From NCBI GenBank assembly GCA_015039465.1, contig MU130240.1, positions 146,647 through 210,646 of the forward strand: 64,000 nucleotides of DNA. The letters run 5' to 3'. A model generated the notes under the pieces. The model searched no databases. It saw only the letters and a program-made list of their open reading frames with translations, and was not told the DNA's origin. The first letter of the stretch is position 1. Each line of letters opens with the position of its first letter. Of this stretch, positions 42,111 to 63,583 are shown piece by piece. The DNA comes from Phlegmacium glaucopus (Eukaryota > Basidiomycota > Agaricomycetes > Agaricales > Cortinariaceae). The position numbers were made by a program, and so were the translations under genes.

Positions 42111-42555
42111 CCGCGCCCCCAAACCCGTGCTAGAAAATCATTATGTAATCTTCGGACTTTGAATTATCGTCGCGTCGAGCTCACGCGACGACAGCGGCCT
42201 TTTTGCTACTTTTTACTGTGAAAGTTGTTATATTTAGCTTAGGCACCATATAAATTAAAATTTGGGGCCCAGAGGATGGGTGTTTATGTGACTTCCTCGT
42301 CGGTAGGAAATGAAGCCAAAAGTGGTGCACGTGATTTGGAGCTCAACTTGACATGCACCTAATTTTCACGAAAGCATCCACATCACATCAGATACTCTTA
42401 AATTAGATATATAATAAATTTAAGGATCCAATATAAATACGTTCTCTCTAAGAACAGCTGAAAAGACCCTTCAATTATTGCGTTCAGAGGAGATGAAGAT
42501 GATTTCGAAGTCCGAAGATTACATAAACATTTTCTAGCATGGGTTTGGGGCGCGG
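42111..42555. mobile_element. 445-bp inverted-repeat element abutting the YR element
   Basis: Terminal inverted repeats of about 48 bp: the left end is CCGCGCCCCCAAACCCGTGC and the right end, reading inward, CCGCGCCCCAAACCCATGCT; both continue with AGAAAAT..TATGTAATCTTCGGACTT. No gene inside. Its right end lies two bases before the ACTTC core of element A. Confidence 0.75.
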
Positions 42556-43048
42556 AGACTTCTGTTGAGATCTTGACGGTTGGCCGAGTCACGTGGGATG
42601 CGGGGGCTGCCGCGTCACCAGCGAGGAACTGGCTCAGGTCTCGGCAGAACCGTAGTTCGGTTCCGGGGACGGGCCTTGGCCCAATTTGGGCGCTTTTGCC
42701 CCTGTTTGCCTTGGACGCCTTCGTCCGCCGTCGGGTCAGTTCGGCTTGCTGATGCCCCCCGTCCCCTTTCAATTAGATCACTGCCAGAGCAGGACGGAAC
42801 ATGGCGCCTCGACGGCGGTGAGTGTGATCGGGATCGAGGCCAAGACTACTACGACCCCGATTCTGGCCAGCACCGACGACAGCAGCAGCTCTGTCGACAT
42901 CGCTCGAGCTCCTGATCCTGATCAGGCTCGTCACCTTCACCTTCACCTGGGCTTTGTCCTTGCCCTCGGTTTTCTCGCGATAACATCAATCTCGATCTCC
43001 TGCTTCTTCTGCCTCGTTCGCAAACAGCCAGGCACAATAAATTCCATA

Positions 43049-44692
43049 ATGGACTCCTGCTGCAACGGTGGCCGTGGTGATGATCCCATGGACGTAGACA
43101 TCAAGGAGGAGCCGATGCCGTTCCCACATGTCGTGGATGGCAAGATGGAGACCTGGCTCCTGGACATGTGAGTCGTCCCTTTTCCTTATCCTGACGTGAC
43201 GATGCCGCCCACTTACTTCAGCTGATTTTGATTTTCTGCCCAGAAACAAGCAGGACAAGACGACCCTCAAAGACTGGTGCCGTGGATTCGGCCTGCACTA
43301 CTCTGGCAACAAGAAAGCCCTCAAGAACGAGCTGCGCACGTTTAGTCGGAATCAGGCTGCATGGGATCGGTGCGTACATGTGTTTCTTTTGACAATCATT
43401 ACATTTGTCGTTTGTTATATTGTCGTTACTTACTATATATATATATATATATAATAGCATCCTTCCCGGAGCTCGTCGCACACACAGAGGTCCCCGAATC
43501 GGCAGCAAGAGGACTTCCAAGAAGCCGTCTGCATCCCTTGCAGAGAGCCATTTCCCCGGTCAACAACAGGCTGTGCCTCGTGCACCAGCAATGCTCCCGA
43601 CGCAGGCCGTACAACTTGCTGCATCGCAAGTTGTCAATGGCAAGGCTGACCTCGATTGGGTAAGTTATGCATGACACATATCTTGCTTTCTCCCATTTAC
43701 TGACCGGTTAATAAACCCAGGCAAACAACATACTGAAAAGGTTCCCTCACATGAACAAGCCAGCCCGTGATGCGTATCGAGCCCAGGCAGCTGGCCGACA
43801 TGTGGTGAGTACCGTGTATTCTTTTTTTTTCTTACCTTATCTTTCTTTTTTTAAAACAGAACACATCTGCGCTCAACGACACCATCAACAGTGGTTTCGA
43901 CGAGATAAAGGCCATCATCAAGGGACCATATCAATGTGTTCTACCAGTGCTTCTTGCAAGTACCCCAACCCCTCGATATTCTTCGGCTGCCAGCACAACA
44001 TTTGTCGAGCCTCAGCCCGAATCGGAATCACCACCTGAGAACATTCAAGAGGAGTCCCAAGCCATGACGATCTCCTCACCTGAAGCACGCACCCTTACAC
44101 TCGGAAATAACACCACTCTCACATTCACTCCGGATGACGTCCCATTTCCACCTGCACCAACATTTGCTGACGATCTGCCTCGACTCAACCGGATGTGGGA
44201 CGACACATCGACAAATTGGGATGGACAGTCAGCCTTGCACATCAAGGATGTTCCCATCGCCATCGTGTATTGGCCATTTGTTTATGCAAGCTCAAAAGTT
44301 GACGGACCTTGGAAGTCAAGGCAGTGGAACGTGTTGAAATCACGTCATTCTGAATGGAAGGTTTGTCTTTATGATTTTTTAACACCCGCCAGTCTACTTT
44401 CCTGATGAGCCTACAAATACAGTACATTGTCCAGCGATGGCGTGAAGGATCTGAGGCCAATTTCTGGAAGGAGTTCAGTGATTCGACAGGAACCAGAATG
44501 AATTACACAGCAATCATCAACCGGCTCAAAGCTCTGCGGGTAGAAGAGAACAGTCGGCTTACCGAGCAGGCAAAGAAAGAGTACGGTGATAGCTTTGCAT
44601 CCACCTTCGTCTACAGGAAGAATGGGCAAGTGCACGTCATGTGTAAGCCAGCCGACATCGCGAGGATGTATCAAAAATTACAGGCTGAGTGA
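43049..44692 (+). CDS. SAP-like companion protein of the YR element, copy A
   Basis: Six exons: 43049-43167, 43244-43369, 43458-43659, 43721-43804, 43860-44360 and 44423-44692, giving 1302 nt (433 aa). An acidic start MDVDIKEEPMPFPHVVDGK precedes a SAP-like helix pair (TLKDWCRGFGLHYSGNKKAL, residues about 46-75), a motif that binds DNA. A basic linker, a conserved middle (ANNILKRFPHMNKPARDAYR) and a C-terminal domain with WKSRQWNVLKSRHSEW, RWREGSEANFWKEF and MCKPADIARMYQKL follow; this part could be DNA-binding (GCR1_C-like domains occur in Crypton proteins, but I cannot confirm it here). The frame stays open upstream to about 42686 and would add a membrane-like segment. It probably helps recombination or target choice. 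Confidence 0.75.
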
Positions 44693-44806
44693 GAGAGCGA
44701 GAGCAGTAGTCATTCATTCATTACGGTAGTCATTTGCTTGCTATTCTAATTACCCACATACATTTTCTAATGGAAAATAATACTAATTCATATAATCTAC
44801 AAGCAA

Positions 44807-46596
44807 CTATGAGCAACAACAAGACCTTCCACAGTGAGGGCACCTAACTGTAGCAATACATTTTGGGTTGAAGAACTCATCCCGGGATTCCGTTGGGTCG
44901 TCACTCCAGGAAATCAGGTACTTTACAATTGTCATGTTAGAGAACTCTGTACTCCAGCCACCCCACTCACAGATCCTCCGAAGAAGCCAGCGTCGAACTG
45001 ATGCTAGGTACTGACATCCTCCTCGTCGAAAGGAATGTGTTCCGTAAGGGGTGAAGTCGACCTCGATCTCAGTGAGGTTGCGACGGAACATCTCTAGAAA
45101 CTGGGCAGATGTCTCCGAAAAAAAAGAAAAGATAAGGACTCATACCAAATTTAAGAGGATGAAAGAAGCAAACCTACCACCGCGCTATCTCTCTCAGCAG
45201 GTCTACCAGCAGCCAGCTGGCGAAACAGAAAGCCAGAGGTGATCTTCGAGGTGTGTATCCAGTCAGCCAAGGCACAAACGGGGCACAGATAAGTTTCTTC
45301 TGGACCGAGAGGGTACAGAACAAATGGCTTGATATCTGTACCGTTACAACAAGATGATAGATAAGTAAGCAACTTATCCATATACATATAATTCACATAA
45401 AAAAATATTTACCTCCAAACTGATGTGTCTTACGGAAGGGCAGTGTCAGAGTGACCTTACCCTCCTCCTCTAATTTAATATGTTCCCTGCGAATTTTCAG
45501 GACCTCATCAATGCGAAGCAAACACAAGTATGAAATCGTATAGACAGCCTGAACCAGCCGACGGTGGAACGGCCCCCCCCATGAACCAGCGTTCCGACTG
45601 TTTGGTGCGCATTTTCCGACCTCCCAAAGCTCAGCTTGATGGTTGAAGTCGTACAGCTTCTCCATCATTCCCTAAACACTGTGTGAAAAGATGAAGGACA
45701 GGCAAGAACCTTGAGCTTACTCACTGGTGTCATCGCACGAGCGCTGGTGGAGGTTTCACCTCCCTGAACCTAAGTACCAGTAAAATGAAGTCAGACAGTC
45801 AAGAAAAGGTCCTGACCTTACGGCGGTGTAAAGCAAGCATGTAGTTGGAAACCTCAGTAGAAATGGATGGATTTCCGACCATCACTCCCTGGGATTCATC
45901 CATTTGCCAGGACCGGTTGCCACAGCCATAAAGCCTACCGAATGCATAGGTCATAGCGGCACGCATTTTCTGGGCATGCGTATAGCCGCTCCGGATTGTA
46001 GACGAACTTTTGTTGCTCCCATCAAGATTGCAACTGTCACATCTTCAAAAGTTGTTAGTCTCGACTCCTCGATGAGGCGGTTACAGGTACAGGTATAGAA
46101 CTCACTCATTCATTATCCAAGCAATAATGAATCGCGCAGAATCCTGAGGTGGACTCTTGCATAAGAATTCTTCCTTTGTCTTGATTAAGTTCTTTGAAAT
46201 CAGGAAGGACATGCATGCATCCACGAGGCTACAGAGTGAGATCGGTATCAATATCAATATCAATATCAAAACGGAAAGGCCGAGAAAGAAGCCAGCAAAG
46301 GTTAGGGCTTACCGCTGATAGCCCTTCTCAGTACGCTCTGATACTGCTTTTGAGGCCCCCGTAATTGTGTCAGACCATTGCGATGGCAAGCCGACAAGTG
46401 TTTCTCCATCATCAACTTCAATTAAATCCTCTTCGGCAAGGTCTGGAACGGTGCCTTGCTCGTCTTCCATGTCCACAGCGATGTCACTGTCCTCGATCTC
46501 GCCTATCCTGTCAATTTTCGTAGAACCGGGAATACCTGCAAACGCAGGCAAGTCCAGCGGCGAGATAGCAGGGAGCTGACGGCATTGGGTAGGCAT
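44807..46596 (-). CDS. Tyrosine recombinase (Crypton-like), copy A
   Basis: At least seven exons from ATG 46596; exon 1 is 46596-46313 and exon 2 46228-46107. The order is an acidic N-terminal region, a core-binding helical domain (GYTHAQKMRAAMTYAFGRLY, SNYMLALHRRK) and the catalytic domain. Catalytic residues are visible: Arg in CLLRIDEVLKIRREHI, Lys in the KVTLTLPFRKTHQF hairpin, THSFRRGG (H-x-x-R), WGGWS (second His/Trp position) and Tyr in NMTIVKYLISW. The C-terminal end has a CPHCGRSC Cys cluster. It should cut and rejoin DNA through a covalent Tyr linkage to excise and insert the element. It converges on the SAP-like gene, 114 bp apart. Further 5' exons beyond 46596 are possible. Confidence 0.82.
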
Positions 46597-48263
46597 GTGA
46601 TGATGTGATGTCGGGCAAAGAGAGAGAGAGAGGTGAATAAAGGAAGCTGAAAGACGATGCGCGTCTTATGTTCATTTTCATACATGTTTCATATGACTAA
46701 AGACAAATGATTCGGCTATTAAATTAATAGGTTTTTGTGCACAAGGACATCTAACTCACGCTTCAGAGAGCTAGGAAGCCTGTTGATGAACTGACTGTTG
46801 CCGATGAGGATCGGGCACGGCCACAGGGGCTTCTGATGGGTTTGTGACTGCCAATGGTGGATTGCTCGTCGACGCAGCAAGCATTTAGGAAACAGCCTCG
46901 GATTTGCAGGGGCTGGCATTGGATGAGGTTCACCTGCGCTGTGACGACTTGGAACTGGCCCGGAGCTGCTGGGCCAGGTGGAACCAGTCAGGCAAGGAAG
47001 GTGGGAGAGTGGTGACAGTGATAAGGTGGGGAAAGACCTGGGGCGCGAGGAAAGACTTGTGGTTGAGGGATCTAGAGCTTCCTTGAGACCAGGAAGCAAG
47101 GAGCTACAAGCACACGTATTAGTAGTGAAGGGTGGAATGATCAAGGGGCTTACCTGACGGAGCTAGCTTGCTGAGCCAGGACAGAGGCGAGAACTACCGT
47201 TCTGCATTTGTGGCAGCCTGAAATTGTAAAGAAACCGTCTCTTCTCCTCAGTCAACCGTCATTCCTCCGCAAGAAAACAGGCATGGTGGGCTAAGAACTG
47301 TCATTTTTAGCCTTCGTGACAGCTTCATATTTTGATGGGCGAACCTTTTGCTAGCAATCCCAGAGCATCGGGCTTGAGCGAGTTGGCGAAATGCCCGTTC
47401 TGGGCAGGGTCAGATGGACGTGACAGAGCTGGGTCAGTTCTTGAATCAGGTTCCACTTGGCGGTACATTCGGCTACATATAATAATGGCAGGAACATACC
47501 TTCATACCTTGGCAGGTGTATGTAACGCACTCAAAATTAAATGACGCCTCACTTTCGAGAGATTGGCAATTCTGCCTCGTGTACTATCAGTGGCAGGCAA
47601 TATATAAGTTTATGCATTGAACTCACTGCTGCTCTCAATTGGCCCCTCCTGTTGATGCCAGTCCTTTACTGATCACCATCCTCTTCACTACTACCTACTA
47701 CCACTAGCCAGAGCCAGCTTGATGACATACGTCAAGACCTTGATCGAGGAAGGAGGACTCTTGGCATCCTCCCACTTAACCGAGGATCGGTTCGCTCCTC
47801 TTGCGTGAGTGCCGTTGCCATTGCGCAGCGACTTTTTTTTGCTTTGTTCTGAGTGCTCTATGTCAATTGTGGATAAGTAGTCGATTCAAATCCAAGTCAT
47901 CCAACTTACGGAGGTGTGACATGGTCTTGTCCCCTGTCCGAATCCACATCTTTCGTCGCATCGCATCTGAGCCCGAGCCCCATTCCTGTTCGGTTCCTTT
48001 TTTTGTTCGGTTCCAGGTTACATCCCTGGATGATCCAGGGATGTACCTGATCCAGCTTGCTTTTGGGCTTTACGTCGCGTCGCGTGTGCACGGACAGTGA
48101 CAGGCTGAGATCAGCAGCAGAGAGTCGAGAGTGTGAGCGCGAGCCGAGCTGGTGCCAGAGTGCGTCCGGATGGGAGTGAGCAGCGTGAGCGGCTTGACCG
48201 TCACAGCTTACCTACGCTGGTGACGCGTGATTGGAAACCGTCGCTTGGGTCGGTCGAAACCAT
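46597..48263. other. 5' region of the recombinase gene and right end of element A
   Basis: Mostly noncoding. A proline- and serine-rich minus-strand frame (46719-47144) may belong to an upstream exon. A 27-bp hairpin (TACATCCCTGGA, TGA loop) lies at 48019-48045, about 220 bp from the element end, and recurs in copy B at about 53696-53718. It might be a recombinase or host-factor binding site. Confidence 0.45.
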
Positions 48264-48747
48264 ACTTCTGTTGAGATCTTGACGGTTGGCCGAGTCACGT
48301 GGGATGCGGGGCTTGCCGCGTCACCAGCGAGGAACTGGCTCAGGCCTCGGCAGAACCGTAGTTCGGTTCCGGGGACGGGCCTTGACCCGATTTGGGCGCT
48401 TTTGCCCCTGTTTGCCTCAGACGCCTTCGTCCGCCGTCGGGTCAGTTCGGCTTGCTGATGCCCCCCGTCCCCTTTCAATTAGATCACTGCCAGAGCAGGA
48501 CGGAACATGGCGCTTCGACGGCGCATCGACGGCGGTGAGTGTGATCGGGATCGAGGCCAAGACTACTACGACCCCCCCGATTCTGGCCAGCACTGACAGC
48601 ACCTCTCTCGACGACGCTCAAGCACCTCAGGCTCGTCACCTTCACCTGGGCTTCATCGTCGCCCTCCTCGGTTTTCTTGCGATAATCTCAATCTCGATCT
48701 CCTGCCTTTTCTGCCTTGTTCGTAATCATAAACGGCCCACAACAGTG

Positions 48748-50386
48748 ATGGACTCGTGCTGCGATCCCATGGATGTAGACATCAAGGAGGAGCCAATGCC
48801 GTTCCCACATGTCGTGGATGGCAAGATGGAGACCTGGCTCCTGGACATGTGAGTCCTCCATTCGTTATCCTGACGAGCCACCCACTAATGCTTCAGCTGA
48901 TGATTTTCATTTCATTTCATTTCTCTGCCCAGAAACAAGCAGGACAAGACAACCCTCAAAGACTGGTGCCGTGGATTCGGCCTGCACTACTCTGGCAACA
49001 AGAAAGCCCTCAAGAACGAGCTGCGCACATTTAGTCGGAATCAGGCTGCATGGGATCGGTGCGTATATACCTGTTGGCAATTGCTTTTTCTCGCTTTTTC
49101 TCACTTTGTTTTTATATGTATATGATAGCATCCTTCCCGGAGCTCGTCGCACCCACAGAGGTCCCCGAATTGGCAGCAAGAAGTCATCCAAGAAGCCGTC
49201 TGCATCCCTTGCAGAGAGCCTCTCTCCCATTCAACAACAGGCTGTGCCTCATGCACCAGCGATGCTCCCGACGCAGGCCGTACAACTTGCTGCATCGCAA
49301 GTTGTCAATGGCAAGGCTGACCTCGATTGGGTAAGTTATGCATGTCATATATCTCACTTTCTCCCGATTACTGACCATTAAGAAACCCAGGCAAACAACA
49401 TATCAAAGAGGTTCCCTCACATGGACAAGCCAGCTCGTGACGCGTATCGAGCCCAAGCAGCAGGCCAACATGTGGTGAGTACCGTATTTATTTATTTTTT
49501 ACCTTCCATTGCTCTCGTCGCAGCTCACAACAACGTTCTCACATTTTTTTTAAACAGAACACATCTGTGCTCAATGACTCTATCAACAGTGGTTTTGATG
49601 AAATAAAGGCCATCATCAATGGACCATATCAATATGTGCTACCCATGCTCCTCGCAAGTACCTCAACCCCTCCTCGATATTCTTCAGCTGCCAGCACAAC
49701 ATTTGTCGAGCCTCAGCCAGAATCAGAATCCCCACCTGAGGACATTCAAGAGGGTTCCCAACTCATGACAATCTCCGAAGCATGCCGCACCCTTACACTC
49801 GGAAACAGCACCACTCTCACATTCACTCCAGACGACGTGCCGTTTCCACCTGCACCAACATTTGCTGATGATTTGCCTCGACTCAACCGCATGTGGGATG
49901 ACACATCGACAAATTGGGATGGACAGTCAGCCTTGCACATCAAGGATGTTCCCATCGCCATTGTCTATTGGCCGTTTGTTTATGCAAGCTCAAAAGTTGA
50001 TGGGCCTTGGAAGTCAAGGCAGTGGAACGTGTTGAAATCACGTCATTCTGAATGGAAGGTTTGTCCTTGTGATTTTTTAACACTGTTCTACTTTGCTGAT
50101 GATGCTACGAATACAGTACATTGTCCAACGATGGCGTGAAGGCTCTGAGGCTGATTTCTGGAAGGACTTCAGTGATTCAACAGGAACCAGAATGAATTAC
50201 ACAGCAATCATCAACCGGCTCAAAGCTCTACGGGTAGAAGAGAACAATCGGATTGCTGAGCAGGCCAAGAAAGAGTATGGGGATTGCTTTGCATCCATGT
50301 TTGTCTACAGGAAGAATGGGAAAGTGCATGTCATGTGTAAGCCAGCTGACATTGCAAGGATGTATCAAAAATTACGGTCCGAGTGA
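48748..50386 (+). CDS. SAP-like companion protein of the YR element, copy B
   Basis: Six exons: 48748-48848, 48933-49058, 49129-49330, 49391-49474, 49558-50058 and 50117-50386, giving 1284 nt (427 aa). Exons 2-6 have exactly the same lengths as in copy A; exon 1 is 18 nt (six codons) shorter. Intact, with the same SAP-like motif and C-terminal domain. Substitutions are mostly conservative (for example HFPGQQQAVP to LSPIQQQAVP). Upstream the frame is open continuously from 48286 in phase with this ATG, including LGFIVALLGFLAIISISISC, so a longer membrane-anchored form is possible. Confidence 0.77.
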
Positions 50387-50518
50387 GAGCAGTAGATCAG
50401 GTAGTCATTAGTATTATTCATCATTTGTTCATTACAGTAGTCATTTGCTTGCTATTCAAGTTTTAATTACACACTAGTCATTTGGTTGCTATTCAAGTTT
50501 GTTCTAATTACACACTAA

Positions 50519-52291
50519 TTACGAGCAACTACAAGACCTTCCACAGTGGGGGCACCTCACTGTAGCAACACGTTTTGGGTTGAAGAATTCATCGCGGGAT
50601 TCTGTTGGGTCGTCACTCCAGGAAATCAGATACTTTACAATTGTCATATTAGAGAACTCCGTACTCCACCCACCCCACTCACAGATCCTTCGAAGCAGCC
50701 AGCGTCGAACTGATGCTAGGTACTGACATCCTCCTCGTCGAAAGGAATGGGTTCCATAAGGGGTGAAGTCGACCTCAATCTCAGCAAGGTTGCGACGAAA
50801 CATCTCTAGAAACTGGGCAGATGTCTCAAAAAATAAAAATAAGGACCCTACTGAATTTAAAAGGACAAAAGAAGCAAACATACCACTGCACTATCTCTCT
50901 CAGCTGGTCTACCAGCAGCCAGCTGGCGAAACAGAAAGCCAGCGGTGATCTTCGAGGCATGTATCCAGTCGGCCAAGGCACGGACAGGGCATAGATAGGT
51001 CTCTTCTGGACCGAGAGGGTACAAAACAAATGGCTTGATGTCTACCGTCACCACAAGACCATAGGTGTTATTCATATAATTCAAGTAAAATACTCAAGTA
51101 AAATACTCACCTCCAAACTGATGTGTTTTACGGAAGGGCAGTGTCAGAATGACCTTACCCTCCTCCTCCAATTTAATATGTTCCCTGCGAATTTTCAGGA
51201 CCTCATCGATGCGAAGCAAACACAAGTACGAAATGGTGTAAACAGCCTGAACCAGCCGACGGTGGAACGGCCCTCCCCATGAACCAGCATTCCGACTGTT
51301 TGGTGCACATTTTCCGACCTCCCAAAGCTCAGCTTGATGGTTGAAGTCATAGAGCTTCTCCATTATTCCCTAAACACTGTGTGAAAAGGTGAAGGACAGG
51401 CAAAAACCTTGTGCTGACTCACTGGTGTCATCGCACGAGCACTGGTGGAGGTTTCACCTCCCTGAACCTAAGTACCAGTAAAATTAAGTCAGACAGTAAA
51501 AAAAAAAACCCAGAAAGTCAACCGCCCAAGGTCCTTACCTTACGCCGGTGTAAAGCAAGCATGTAGTTGGAAACCTCAGTAGAAATGGATGGATTTCCGA
51601 CCATCACTCCCCAGGATTCATCCAGTTGCCAAGACCGGTTGCCACAACCATAAAGTCGACCAAATGCATAGGTCATAGCGGCACGCATTTTCTGGGCATG
51701 TGTATAGCTGCTCCGGATTGTAGACGAACTTTTGTCGCTCCCGTCGAGATTGCAACTGTCACATCTTCAAAGGTTGTTAGTCTCAACTCTTGAGTGGTTA
51801 CAGGTACAGAGACAGAACTCACTCATTCATTATCCAAGCGATAATGAATCACGCAGAATCCTGAGGTGGACTCTTGCATAAAAACTCTTCCTTCGTCTTG
51901 ATCAAATTCTTTGAAATCAGGAAGGACATGCACGCGTCCACGAGGCTACAGAGAGAGAGGTCAGTATCAATAGCAAACTGGAAAGGGTGAGAAAGCAGAC
52001 AAAGGTTGGGCCTTACCGCTGATAGCCTTTCTCAGTATGCTCTGATACTGCTTTTGAGGCACCCGTAATCGTGTCAGACCATTGCGATGGCAGGCCAACA
52101 AGCCTTTCATCAACTTCAGTTAAATCCTCTTCGGCAAGGTCTGGAACAGTGCCCTGCTCGTCCTCCATGTCCACAGCAATGTCGTTGTCCTCAATCTCTC
52201 CTATCCTGTCAATTTTCGTAGAACAGGGAATACCCGCAAATGCAGGCGAGTCCAGCAGCGAGACAGCAGGGAGCTGACATTGGGTAGGCAT
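50519..52291 (-). CDS. Tyrosine recombinase (Crypton-like), copy B
   Basis: Same exon structure as copy A, ATG at 52291 (MPTQCQLPAVSLLDSPAFAG). All catalytic motifs are kept: CLLRIDEVLKIRREHI, THSFRRGG, WGGWS and IVKYLISW; the C-terminal CPHCGRSC cluster is also kept. Exon 1 carries an in-frame loss relative to copy A (VDDGETLVG to VDERLVG). No premature stop was seen in the exons I could align, so it may still be active. It converges on the companion gene ending at 50386. Confidence 0.82.
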
Positions 52292-53941
52292 GTTATGTGA
52301 TGTTGGTCAGAGAGGGAGGCGAACAAAGAAAGATGAAAGACGAGACGATGCACGTCTTATGTCCGTTTTCATACATGTTTCATATGACTAAAGACGAATG
52401 ATTCAGCTATTAAATTAATAGAATTTCGTGCATAAGGACACTGAACTCACGCTTCAGAGAGCTAGGAAGCCCGTTGATGAACCGACTGTTGCTGAGGCAG
52501 TCCTGGATGCCGCCAATGAATGAGGATCGGGCACAGGGACTTCTGATGGGTTTGTGACCACCAATGGTGGACAACTTGTCGACTCGGACGTGACAAGTAT
52601 TTAGGAAACAGCCTTGGATTTGCAGGGGCTGGAATTGGATGAGGTTCAAGACGACTTGGAACTGGCTCAGAGCTGGGCCAGGTGGAACCAGTCAGCTGAG
52701 GAAGGTAGGAATTTGAGGGTGGGAGAGCGATGACAGTGATAGACCTGGGGCTGAGGAAAGACTTGTGGTTGGGGATCTAGAGCTTCCTTGAGAGGAGGAA
52801 GCAACGAGCTACAAGCATATATTAGCGGTAAAGGGCAGAATGATGAAGGGGCTTACCTGACTGAGCTAGCTTGATGAACCGGAACGGAGGCCAGAACTAC
52901 AGTTCTGCCTTCGTGGCAGCCTGAAATTGTCAAGAAACTGTGTCTTCTCCTCAATAAACCGTCATTCCTCTGCAAGAAAACAGGCATGGTGCGCTAAGAA
53001 CTGTCATTTTTAGCCTTTGCAATGGCTTCATATTTTGATGGGCGAACCTTTGCTAGCAACGCCAGAGTGTTGGGCTTGAGCGAGTTGGCAAAATGCCCGT
53101 TCTGGGCAGGGTCCGATGGACGTGACAGAGCTGGGTCAATCCTTGGATCAGGTTCAACTTGGTGGTATTCGGCTATGTATAATAGCAGGAACATACCTTG
53201 GCAGATGTATGTAACGCACTCAAAATTAAACAAGGCCTCATTTTCGAAACATTGGCAATTCTGCCTCGTGTACTATCAGTGGCGGGCGGGCAATATATAA
53301 GTTTATGCATTGAACTCACCGTTACCGTTTGCTCTCAGTTGGCCCCTCCCATTGATGCCAGTCCTTTATCGACCGCCATCCTCTTCACTACTACTACTAG
53401 CCAGCTTGATGACACACATCAGGACCTTGATCGGCAAGGAAGAAGGACTCTTGGCGTCCTCCCACTTAACCGAGGATCGGTTTGCTCTTCTTGCGTGAGT
53501 GCCGCTCCGCTGTGATTGCGTAGTGAATTATTTTTTTTGAGTGCTCTATGTCAAACGTGGATAAGTGGTGAATTCAAATCCAAGTCATCCAGCTTACAGA
53601 GGTGCAAGGTCTTCTCCAAATCCACATGTTTTCGTTGTGTCGTGTCTGAGCCCCATTCCTGTTCGGTTCCTTGTTTGTCGTTCGGTTCCAGGTTACATCC
53701 CTGGATGATCCAGGGATGATCCTGATCCAGCTTGCTTTCGGGCTTTACGTCGCGTCGCGTGTGCACGGACAGTGACAGGGCTGAGATCAGCAGCAGAGAG
53801 TCGAGAGTGTGAGCGCGAGCCGAGCTGGTGCCAGAGTGCGTCCGGATGGGAGTGAGCAGCGTGAGCGGCTTGGGACCGTCACAGCTTACCTACGCTGGTG
53901 ACGCGTGATTGGAAACCGTCGCTTGGGTCGGTCGAAACGAT
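52292..53941. other. 5' region of the recombinase gene and right end of element B
   Basis: Counterpart of 46597-48263. Contains the same hairpin near 53696-53718 and GC-rich terminal sequence ending GTCGAAACGAT before the core ACTTC. Confidence 0.45.
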
Positions 53942-54504
53942 ACTTCAAAGAAGCATGCTCATCATTTATCCTGTCAAATCCCAGCTCGACTTCTAGTGGC
54001 CCGCTGGATGTGATGCTTATATCGGAGTAGGAACAAAATTTCCACCGCTGTGGTCAGAAAACAAGCTCAAATAGTAAGCGCTCCTTGTTGAAATTGGAAT
54101 TTGGCTCTACACTTTGCAGTGAGGAACGCCCAATTTTTGCCACTAAAAATTTAGGATACTCAGCACTCTACTAATTACTTACGTTGACTTCAAGTTGACT
54201 CTCATCTCATGCGCCACTCGCCAGTGCACGATATCTGGATGACAGTCTGACTCACTGGTATTACTCAGGTATAATCGCTTATTCACGCCCTGCCTGGTAC
54301 AATGATTATATAAAACCCTAGGTAAGTACCCACGGATGATCAAGAGCTAACCTCAAAAGATGTTAGCAGATACCCCACTGACAGCTCGTCTCTCAATTGG
54401 CGGGTCTCTTACGGGTCCTTCAAGTTATTGAAACGCTGAACCTCATTCCTGTACTGCCGTAGAGTTGATATGAATTAAATATTCGAACTGGGTTACATAA
54501 AACA
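53942..54504. repeat. Dispersed repeat, copy 1 (right flank of the YR array)
   Basis: Matches 62969-63583 in the same orientation, beginning with ACTTC, then AAAGAAGCATGCT, and ending near GGGTTACATAAAACA. The second copy has small insertions (for example 10 nt after ACTTC). No gene was identified in it. Confidence 0.8.
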
Positions 54505-56783: not shown

Positions 56784-57236
56784 TGCTCGAAGTTTGCACC
56801 CGCCGGTTGATCGCTCATAGTTGCTACGTTATTTTTGAATTTCAATATGTATACTAATTTGTGATATCAGATGTTTCCACTCCTTTCTGACGGCAGAACT
56901 ACTCATTGCTTTAGTCTCTCGTAGACAGCTTCGATATATGTGATGTGACATGAGTCATGGATCACGATATATCATTGCTTCTAGAAAGCAGATACACATT
57001 CATGAGAGGTCAGATGTGTTCAATTCAAAACAGGACAGTGGTCACGGACTGTCCCGCACTAACCTACGACTTTTCTGCTCTCAGAAAGGTCTTTGGCAGA
57101 GTGGAAACGACGACATCGATGGAAAATATCTGATATCGTAAATTACATACTGAGTGAATATTGAATATACATATTGAAATTCAAAAATAACGTAGCGCGA
57201 TCATCGATCAACCCGCAGGTGCAAACTTTGAGCGCT
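56784..57236. mobile_element. About 450-bp inverted-repeat (MITE-like) element
   Basis: Sequence at 56784-56880 and the reverse complement of 57128-57236 share AAGTTTGCACC, GTTGATCG, CTACGTTATTTTTGAATTTC, AATATGTATA and GATATCAGAT in order. No gene inside and no target duplication determined. Confidence 0.6.
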
Positions 57237-61157: not shown

Positions 61158-62922
61158 TCGGTAGTTTACGAAGTCTGCCTTATGGGACGACGGCCCCAAC
61201 GATTGACTAGATACCACCTGAAAACAATTTAAGACGGGATCTCAGGAGGTGAACAAAGACATTCTTACGGTGGGAGAACATAGATCAACGAGTTAATGCC
61301 TGTCACAAGAATTGCTTGACGGCCTATCCACCCGGCCTCGACAGTATTCAGTCGGTCAGAGAAAGATTAGATGAGATTAGGTAATTACAGGCCTGCCTTC
61401 AAACACGCGGGCTGCATGTACACCGGTTGGGTATCAACTTGATTTTGGATGAGAAGTTTACTCACGAGCATAATAAGAGATTACTATTGCAATGAATTGT
61501 GAGCTTAGAGGCGGTGAGATAGGTAATAACAAAAAATTTATCACTATTCATACCGTTCGATCTTGAGGGGTCAGCATAGAATCCAAATTGCTTCAAGGAC
61601 GATGTTACTTACAAGTTGAGCAAATGCCTGCGAGGACATAGCAAAACGCGTCTTTTATACTTGGGCCGCATTGTTTTGTAGGATATACCCTCCCCAGATT
61701 CACGCTGAGAGATTTATGAATCAGACTGTCGAAGGCACTAGCGTCTTTGTCCCTGATTTCTTCGAATTCTGCTTGCGCAACTGAATTGTTTAGGTCGCCT
61801 CCATGAAGGTCTGCAAGAACTTGTAAGCCTTCTTGGTCTTTATCGTTGTCTATAAGCCAACTAGTCGCAAGTGTAAAGATGCATGGACAGATGGGCTAAA
61901 ATATCTGGACGTACCACGGGCTTTCGGGAATGAGGAAAGTTCCTCCGGCGAGTATAGCAACGATGATACATCGGATGAAAAGGGGTAGACGCCATGATAG
62001 ATTCGAGTCGATGAAAGAGCAGAAATGATCTATCCACTACGTGATGTTTAGGTGATGGTACTCTCGTTGACGAAAAAAGATACTGGACTTACGACTGAGA
62101 AGGAGTAACCAACAATGTTACCAGTGAATTCCGCGCAAGTCAGGGCACCTCTCTAAAGACTATGAGTATGGGGGTGCAAGGGGAGGGAATGAGGTGTCGT
62201 ACATGGTTTGGAGGAGATATCTCACTCTGATATATGGGAACGATAGTTCTTGGCGACATATCTCAGTTGACGGCAACAAGCTATCAAATGATACTCACGA
62301 AAGTAGCCCAACACCAAAACCGCTTATGAGTCGCCCCAGAATCATTGTCCAGATGCCGACTGTAAATGTTTGAACGAGTCCCCCAACAGTGAATATAACT
62401 GCGCCTCCAAGTAAGGTCCATTTCCGACCCACGAGATCGCCAATCCTTCCCGCCGCTATGGAAGTAACTTTGAAGTGGATGTGTGAAAATTAGTAATCAG
62501 GAGTAAATCTAAAGACTTACTAAAGGCGCCAATCTCTAAAACGGCCACAATACTCCCAACTTCGATAGCAGTTGGAGTTTTGAAAAAACTGATGAAATGA
62601 GGACCAGTAATGATTCTAGACATCACACTACGTGTTCAGTTTGGGTTAGTAGCTGGCATATCAGGGGTCAAAAAGATACATGCCAATCATATCCGAACTG
62701 TAAAACCGTCAGAAAATATGTAAAAACGTGTTTTGTGGAAAGACCCACGAGAAATACGCCCAAACTTGCAAACACGGAGATGGCATAGAGTAGTTGGTGT
62801 CCAACCAGTTTTCGGCGAGATTTCACAGGCATCAGGAATGGCGCTGGTGTCTGACTCGCTGGTTTTACATGCAGTGCAACGGTTGGTTGGGACAATGAAC
62901 CGTGGGAAAATGCATACATCAT
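61158..62922 (-). pseudogene. MFS sugar-transporter pseudogene, C-terminally truncated
   Basis: Starts MMYAFSHGSL at 62922. Exons give QLLYAISVFASLGVFL, FGYD, VMSRIITGPHFISFF and AGRIGDLVGRKWTLLGGAV. They continue with ILGRLISGFGVGLLS, RTIVPIYQSEISPPNH, RGALTCAEFTGNIVGYSFSV, LIPESPR and WLIDNDKDQEGLQVLADLHG. Then come AMSSQAFAQL, ISYYA, EAGWIGRQAILVTGINSLIY and WYLVNRWGRRPI. This is the sugar porter family (GRxxGDxxGRK and PESPR signatures). Frameshifts occur before AMSSQAF and around NGMN, and the C-terminal half, after the helix 7-8 region, is missing. The split of FGYD from VMSR needs a non-canonical donor. Non-functional. Confidence 0.8.
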
Positions 62923-62968
62923 AGGTAAACCTTACATAATGCTGCACCGCCCAACATATACGTACTAC

Positions 62969-63583
62969 ACTTCAGATTTGCCAAAGAAGCATGCTAATTA
63001 TTTGTATTATCATCCTGGCAAATCCCAGCTTGACTTCTCCGAGTGGCCCGCTGGATGTAGGGCTTATATCGAAATGGGAACAAAATTTCAACCGCTGTGG
63101 TCAGAAAACAAGTTCAAATAGTAAGCGCTCCTTGTTGAAATTGGCTCTACACTTTGCGGTGGGAACGCCCAATTTTTGCCACTAAATATTTAGGATACTC
63201 AGCAAGGTAAATGATAATGACCGATTAGTAGTCACTCTACTAATTACTTACGTTGACTTCAAGTTGACTCTCATACCATCGTTGTCGTGCGCCACTCGCC
63301 AGTGCACGATATCTGGATGACAGTCTGACTCACTGGTATTACCCAGGTATAATCGCTTATTCGCGCTCTGCCTGATACAATGACTATCTTAAACCCTAGG
63401 CAAGTACCCACGGGGGATCAACTTGAAGTGCTAACTTCAAAAGATGTTAGCAGATACCCCCAGCTCGTCTCTCAATTGGCGGGTCTCTTACGGGTCCTTC
63501 AAGTTATTGAAACGCTGAACCTCATTTCTGTACTGCCGTAGAGTTGACATGACTTAAAGATTCGAACTGGGTTACATAAAACA
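62969..63583. repeat. Dispersed repeat, copy 2
   Basis: Direct repeat of 53942-54504, starting at ACTTC (62969-62973). Here ACTTC is followed by 10 extra bases before AAAGAAGCATGC. There is no YR element on its left, so it may show the unoccupied target. Confidence 0.75.

Follow-up and report, generated by a model that had tools for sequence, protein, structure and literature searches.

We report on a stretch of 64,000 nucleotides (the window; C83:146647-210646) from the 60.5-Mb genome of the Agaricales mushroom Phlegmacium glaucopus, in which two units of a mobile element stand in tandem. Most probably, the tandem consists of two diverged copies of a two-gene tyrosine-recombinase element that starts and ends at ACTTC, and one copy, probably as a circle, was inserted by recombination at the terminal ACTTC of the other. 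On the best reading, the element belongs to a Crypton-like lineage in which a SAP-domain partner is conserved; it integrates at ACTTC and is able to join its own ends. The array is known here from the assembly; the circles we infer.

An earlier note on this DNA had described two head-to-tail units of about 5.7 kb, with ACTTC at both outer ends and at the junction and with the same gene order. Alignment and coordinates confirm this layout (Table 1), and gene models that use GT-AG introns only confirm that a SAP-like gene and a recombinase gene lie tail to tail in it. At the junction, GGTCGGTCGAAACCAT-ACTTC-TGTTGAGATC, the core stands between the two arms quoted in that note. An end-to-end alignment of the units A and B gives 84.7% identity. 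The sister of A is L009 (C83:133936-139617, minus strand), which lies inverted about 50 kb to the left on the same contig and is 99.4% identical, with 7 substitutions; the sister of B is L010 on another contig (C168), with 99.1% identity. Since A and B differ by about 15% and each has a near-identical sister elsewhere, the array is not a local duplication, but two subfamilies that meet at one core. Integration of one copy at the core of the other, much as the note had proposed, is the best explanation of the tandem.

Table 1. Features of the tandem array and its surroundings (positions in the window).
Feature	Position	Strand	Remarks
Unit A, complete element including left core	42558..48263	+	5706 bp; ends common to other copies
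Left core ACTTC	42558..42562	+	
SAP-like gene of A	43049..44692	+	433 amino acids; no internal stop
SAP-like exons of A (six)	43049-43167, 43244-43369, 43458-43659, 43721-43804, 43860-44360, 44423-44692	+	
Tyrosine recombinase gene of A	44807..46596	-	463 amino acids; no internal stop
Recombinase exons of A (seven)	46596-46313, 46228-46106, 46033-45817, 45769-45725, 45671-45413, 45335-45178, 45112-44807	-	
Right terminal region of A, likely cis-acting	48058..48263	+	last 200 bp conserved in B, L010 and L013
Middle core ACTTC, common to A and B	48264..48268	+	
Unit B, second element, other subfamily	48264..53941	+	5678 bp up to last core
SAP-like gene of B	48748..50386	+	no internal stop
Recombinase gene of B	50519..52291	-	one in-frame stop, common to L010
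Right core ACTTC	53942..53946	+	
Empty relative of the insertion site of the array	61181..63583	+	matches the left flank of L009 followed by the right flank of B; single ACTTC (62969)

A DNA search of the genome found six further copies or large pieces besides A and B (L009-L014), plus small fragments. Among the A-like copies, whose flanks vary from site to site, ACTTC stands at 15 of 16 ends, and the left end of L012 has GCTTC; the count includes both ends of A, B and L009-L013, the right end of L014 and the left end of L015, with the core common to A and B counted twice. Because copies elsewhere in the genome share both end points, the shared-core arrangement is beyond chance, and these ends support the view that a fixed 5-bp core bounds a tyrosine-recombinase element. 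The diverged copy on C207 (L018) and its 99.9% copy on C147 (L019), delimited by their own mutual alignment, both have left ends that begin with ACTTC, while the right side of L019 enters Ns. On C55, copy 2 begins with ACTTC and copy 1 with TCTTC. The end reading leaves C64 and C195 aside. Copies that end at different positions, which would have spoken against the earlier note, were looked for: the core holds, and the only departures are the left ends of L012 and of C55 copy 1, and truncated copies.

Over their last 200 bp, B, L010 and L013 agree with A at 97-99%, as compared with 79-86% over the whole element; for the first 250 bp, the values are 97%, 96% and 88%, respectively. Judging by this conservation, the right terminal region of A is likely to be cis-acting. 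No inverted pair of at least 25 nt was found inside A or B. Some further candidates were considered. A second tandem at C55 was rejected, as one unit, a fragment of 2.4 kb, is not contiguous with the other, and so was C76:123178 as an element end, as it has no further similarity. Two further places are possible element ends: C75:67582, which has 31 bp in common with the left end, and C147:317011, which matches the right-end motif only. A scan of IMG/VR gave 101 stretches that fit a pattern, with no relatives among them.

The note had also suggested a search for single copies and empty sites. Run within this genome, it found lone copies, such as L013 on C125, as well as empty relatives for four insertion sites, three of which have a single ACTTC. 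The empty relative of L011 (C171; 91% over 339 columns) has one ACTTC at the junction. A match on C105 (89% over 338 columns), again with one ACTTC, runs from the left flank of A directly into that on the right of L009, and the third empty relative lies in the window itself (Table 1). L012 sits in a repeat, and at least 39 places span the junction; the eight junction-spanning copies that were read have GCTTGAAATCATGCTTATC where L012 has GCTTC ... ACTTC-TTATC. For L010 and L013 we found no empty relative.

A lone ACTTC where the site is empty, and one on either side of the element where it is filled, is also what a cut-and-paste transposon would leave if it made a 5-bp target duplication and strongly preferred ACTTC; the tandem would then be a usual case of nesting, with one copy inserted at the end of an older one. 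We regard this as quite unlikely. The genes encode a tyrosine recombinase and a SAP protein rather than a DDE transposase, ten further open reading frames (ORFs) of the element have no Pfam match, and the sequence that flanks the copies is identical (ACTTC) at unrelated sites. Moreover, a uniform choice among about 127,000 ACTTC sites (a number derived from the density in the window, with 28 element ends assumed) would hit an element end 0.003-0.009 times for 14-40 insertions. Given this expectation, even one array hints that element ends are preferred as landing sites.

The recombinase coding sequence is free of internal stops in A, L009 and L013. The earlier note had reported the recombinase in both units; it is intact in A, but the in-frame stop interrupts that of B, so that within the array only A has an intact recombinase. 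In the comparison with recombinase profiles that the note had asked for, 17 of 36 relatives, though not the A model itself, match Phage_integrase at E <=0.1; relatives also match a Cre-like profile and have a predicted Cre-like fold. Altogether, the 36 members match nine Pfam families at E <=0.1. Two of them touch NDC10_II (E 0.0066), and none of the 36 matches GCR1_C, the domain of CryptonF, or DUF3435, that of Starships. By profile matches and predicted fold, the presumed mobility enzyme of the element is a tyrosine recombinase, as in Cryptons. Some Cryptons bear introns, too.

For the SAP-like protein, a first search found three proteins only, all from Phlegmacium glaucopus, and a profile search, in which the 7993 candidates sharing most words were scored, found 21. 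One deposited protein, P0121, equals the translation of the B gene carried over from the A model. The SAP coding sequence is open throughout in A, B, L009 and L013. The label "SAP-like" given in the earlier note needs a qualification: the SAP domain passes the Pfam cut-off in three of ten proteins scanned, P0126 (Galerina marginata), P0130 (Psilocybe cubensis) and P0124 (metagenome), but stays below it in the other seven, and A itself gives a weak match (E 0.27). The protein is conserved in its C-terminal half, where the only Pfam hit at E <=0.5 is a sub-threshold one in P0124. A structure model was too poor to use (mean predicted local distance difference test score 43.1, from 3 sequences). 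The product is likely a DNA-binding protein.

Upstream of the SAP start of A and in frame with it, positions 42953-43009 encode a strongly hydrophobic, membrane-segment-like stretch. The stretch recurs at this position in B, L009, L010, L012, L013, C207 and C55 copy 2, and two deposited proteins, P0125 and P0130, contain it too. With a ratio of nonsynonymous to synonymous substitution rates (dN/dS) of about 0.35-0.67, it is under weak constraint. The SAP protein may have a longer, membrane-anchored form. We considered whether the right 1.65 kb of A holds a third gene and rejected this, as no ORF of A of at least 35 amino acids there matches two diverged elements.

Comparison of the subfamilies (A or L009; B or L010; L013) gives a dN/dS of 0.07-0.10 for the recombinase and 0.14-0.20 for the SAP gene; with L012 included, the recombinase value is 0.14-0.18, and between B and L010, where there are few changes, the values are 0.52 and 0.24. 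By these codon comparisons, both genes are under purifying selection. Decayed copies are also seen: besides its recombinase stop, L010 carries one in the SAP gene, L012 has one stop per gene and a frameshift in the SAP gene, and L011 has many stops. As B and L010 have a common recombinase stop at unrelated sites, B-type copies likely moved in trans after the loss of their recombinase; that two separate changes gave the same stop may be an alternative, though a less simple one. In L012 (C145) and L011 (C124), C-to-T and G-to-A changes are overrepresented among the differences from A (220 of 361 in L012), which resembles repeat-directed or methylation-linked decay.

We propose that the recombinase would recombine two ACTTC cores by strand exchange inside the core, with the SAP protein probably bound near the ends. 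A circle with one core would be released and then inserted at another ACTTC. The SAP protein may bind DNA and help in recombination or targeting, and the end of a resident copy would offer the same core together with one conserved arm. If a loss of bases at the target created the core of L012, its left core would keep the G of the target and its right core the A of the element, as expected if strand exchange follows the first core base; alternatively, a G may have turned into A later, as this copy has many C-to-T and G-to-A differences from A.

Several observations weigh against this reading. In all four comparisons with empty relatives, the occupied sites are short of 3-22 bp at or near the core (8, plus further small differences; 13 and 9; 3; and 9 bp), where plain conservative integration predicts no missing bases. 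The four alignments have 5, 10, 2 and 2 gap runs in 339, 1473, 304 and 290 columns, respectively, and a gap at the core in every case exceeds expectation (roughly 5 in 10,000, a post hoc estimate by hand). The proposed integration does not explain the missing bases. The direction of the difference, a loss in the occupied site, is known for L012 only; its empty site has GCTTG instead of ACTTC. The loss itself would create the core GCTTC there, and a 9-bp-shorter form of the empty site was not found at up to 3 mismatches. Among the diverged copies, some ends were placed by a scan whose pattern was ACTTC or contained it, namely the left end of C34 and the right ends of C207, C144, C11 and C55 copy 2. 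These are no test of the core, and only the neighbouring arm is independent evidence there. The decayed copies L012 and L011 have no better-conserved ends (the right end of L012 is 84% identical, against 91% overall), and inverted arms flanking the core do not rise above shuffles in any of seven copies (918-1985 of 2000 shuffles reach the observed value). Furthermore, a SAP cluster is missing beside 3 of the 18 recombinase clusters (C15, C78 and C144:203 kb), each of which is partial or weak. Finally, the flanks of A and L009 are exchanged, since the matches on C105 and at 61181-63583 of the window combine flanks of both; this may be an inversion of about 50 kb between the inverted copies or a misassembly.

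A misassembly raises the question whether the tandem is itself an artefact, a misjoin at a repeat. Potentially, the near-identity of A and L009 over 5.7 kb together with their exchanged flanks points that way, and the genome paper (PMC7550596) names Illumina, PacBio or both as the sequencing used across its genomes. Nevertheless, we find an artefact very improbable: A and B differ by 15%, the outer flanks are accounted for by two separate empty sites, even with the exchange between A and L009 reversed, B would adjoin the right end of an A-type copy, and the window has no run of Ns.

The recombinase clusters that lack a SAP cluster, and the higher dN/dS of the SAP gene, could be taken to mean that this gene is a passenger without a part in movement. 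This seems rather doubtful to us, as its dN/dS is still low for a gene of a multi-copy element and the pairing is regular. All 15 SAP clusters found in the genome lie tail to tail with a recombinase cluster, and in Psilocybe cubensis the recombinase JR316_0008006 (P0036) and the SAP protein JR316_0008007 (P0130) have consecutive locus tags and are recorded on a contig of equal length. The two genes also diverge in parallel over 10 lineages (Spearman 0.93; the lineages are related, so that no formal p-value applies).

Two features of the surroundings may be added. A short, non-autonomous-looking transposon with 47-nt inverted ends (91%) lies just left of A (42117-42550) and is also present in the empty relative on C105. 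A repeat of about 60 bp starting with ATATAT occurs at three places (56911-56972 of the window, minus strand; C105; the right flank of L009), at two of them directly after ACTTC.

Cryptons, according to the parts of PMC3212892 that define them, have a tyrosine recombinase, terminal direct repeats of 4-6 bp, no terminal inverted repeats and a proposed circle. The present element shares the first three features with CryptonF of fungi and CryptonS of oomycetes and a diatom, and a circle is proposed for it as well: its ends carry ACTTC (one GCTTC), it has neither terminal inverted nor long direct repeats, and the Pfam scan of its two gene products and ten further ORFs gave no reverse transcriptase or DDE transposase. 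It differs from CryptonF in the lack of the C-terminal GCR1_C domain. In its general features, as far as sequence allows them to be compared, the element works like a Crypton; the likeness described here is one of features. In Table 1 of Kojima and Jurka (PMC3212892), Cryptococcus neoformans is the single basidiomycete named. That the pairing of two genes does not match single-gene Cryptons, as the earlier note had remarked, is true, but two-gene Cryptons are in print: according to a passage of the same paper, some oomycete Cryptons carry a C48 peptidase as their second gene. The unusual feature is the conserved SAP-domain partner. Starships, too, are fungal tyrosine-recombinase transposons with short direct repeats, whose circle is so far unshown in the portion of PMC12506042 concerned; they have a DUF3435 first gene and large cargo, whereas the element here has two genes in 5.7 kb. 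The Cre, Xer, Tn1549 and lambda integrases differ in that the present element is eukaryotic and intron-bearing and that its partner protein belongs to another family. In open-licence papers, searches for a Crypton or tyrosine recombinase paired with a SAP domain, or occurring in agaricomycetes or agarics, brought no description of such an element.

More tentatively, and with less than even confidence, we suggest that mushrooms harbour a separate lineage of two-component tyrosine-recombinase transposons. The SAP protein would be the targeting or directionality factor of a Cre-like recombinase, cassette-like arrays would grow through a preference for resident ends as landing sites, and copies whose own recombinase is dead would be carried in trans. 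Movement of eukaryotic tyrosine-recombinase transposons by circles is, in the section of PMC12506042 that deals with it, a proposal. Compact as it is (5.7 kb, two genes), and with its exact ends and fixed core, its near-identical copies and a head-to-tail junction that occurs naturally, the element would make a convenient system in which to test circle formation, core specificity and the role of the partner protein; its tandem junction has the sequence that a circle would have.
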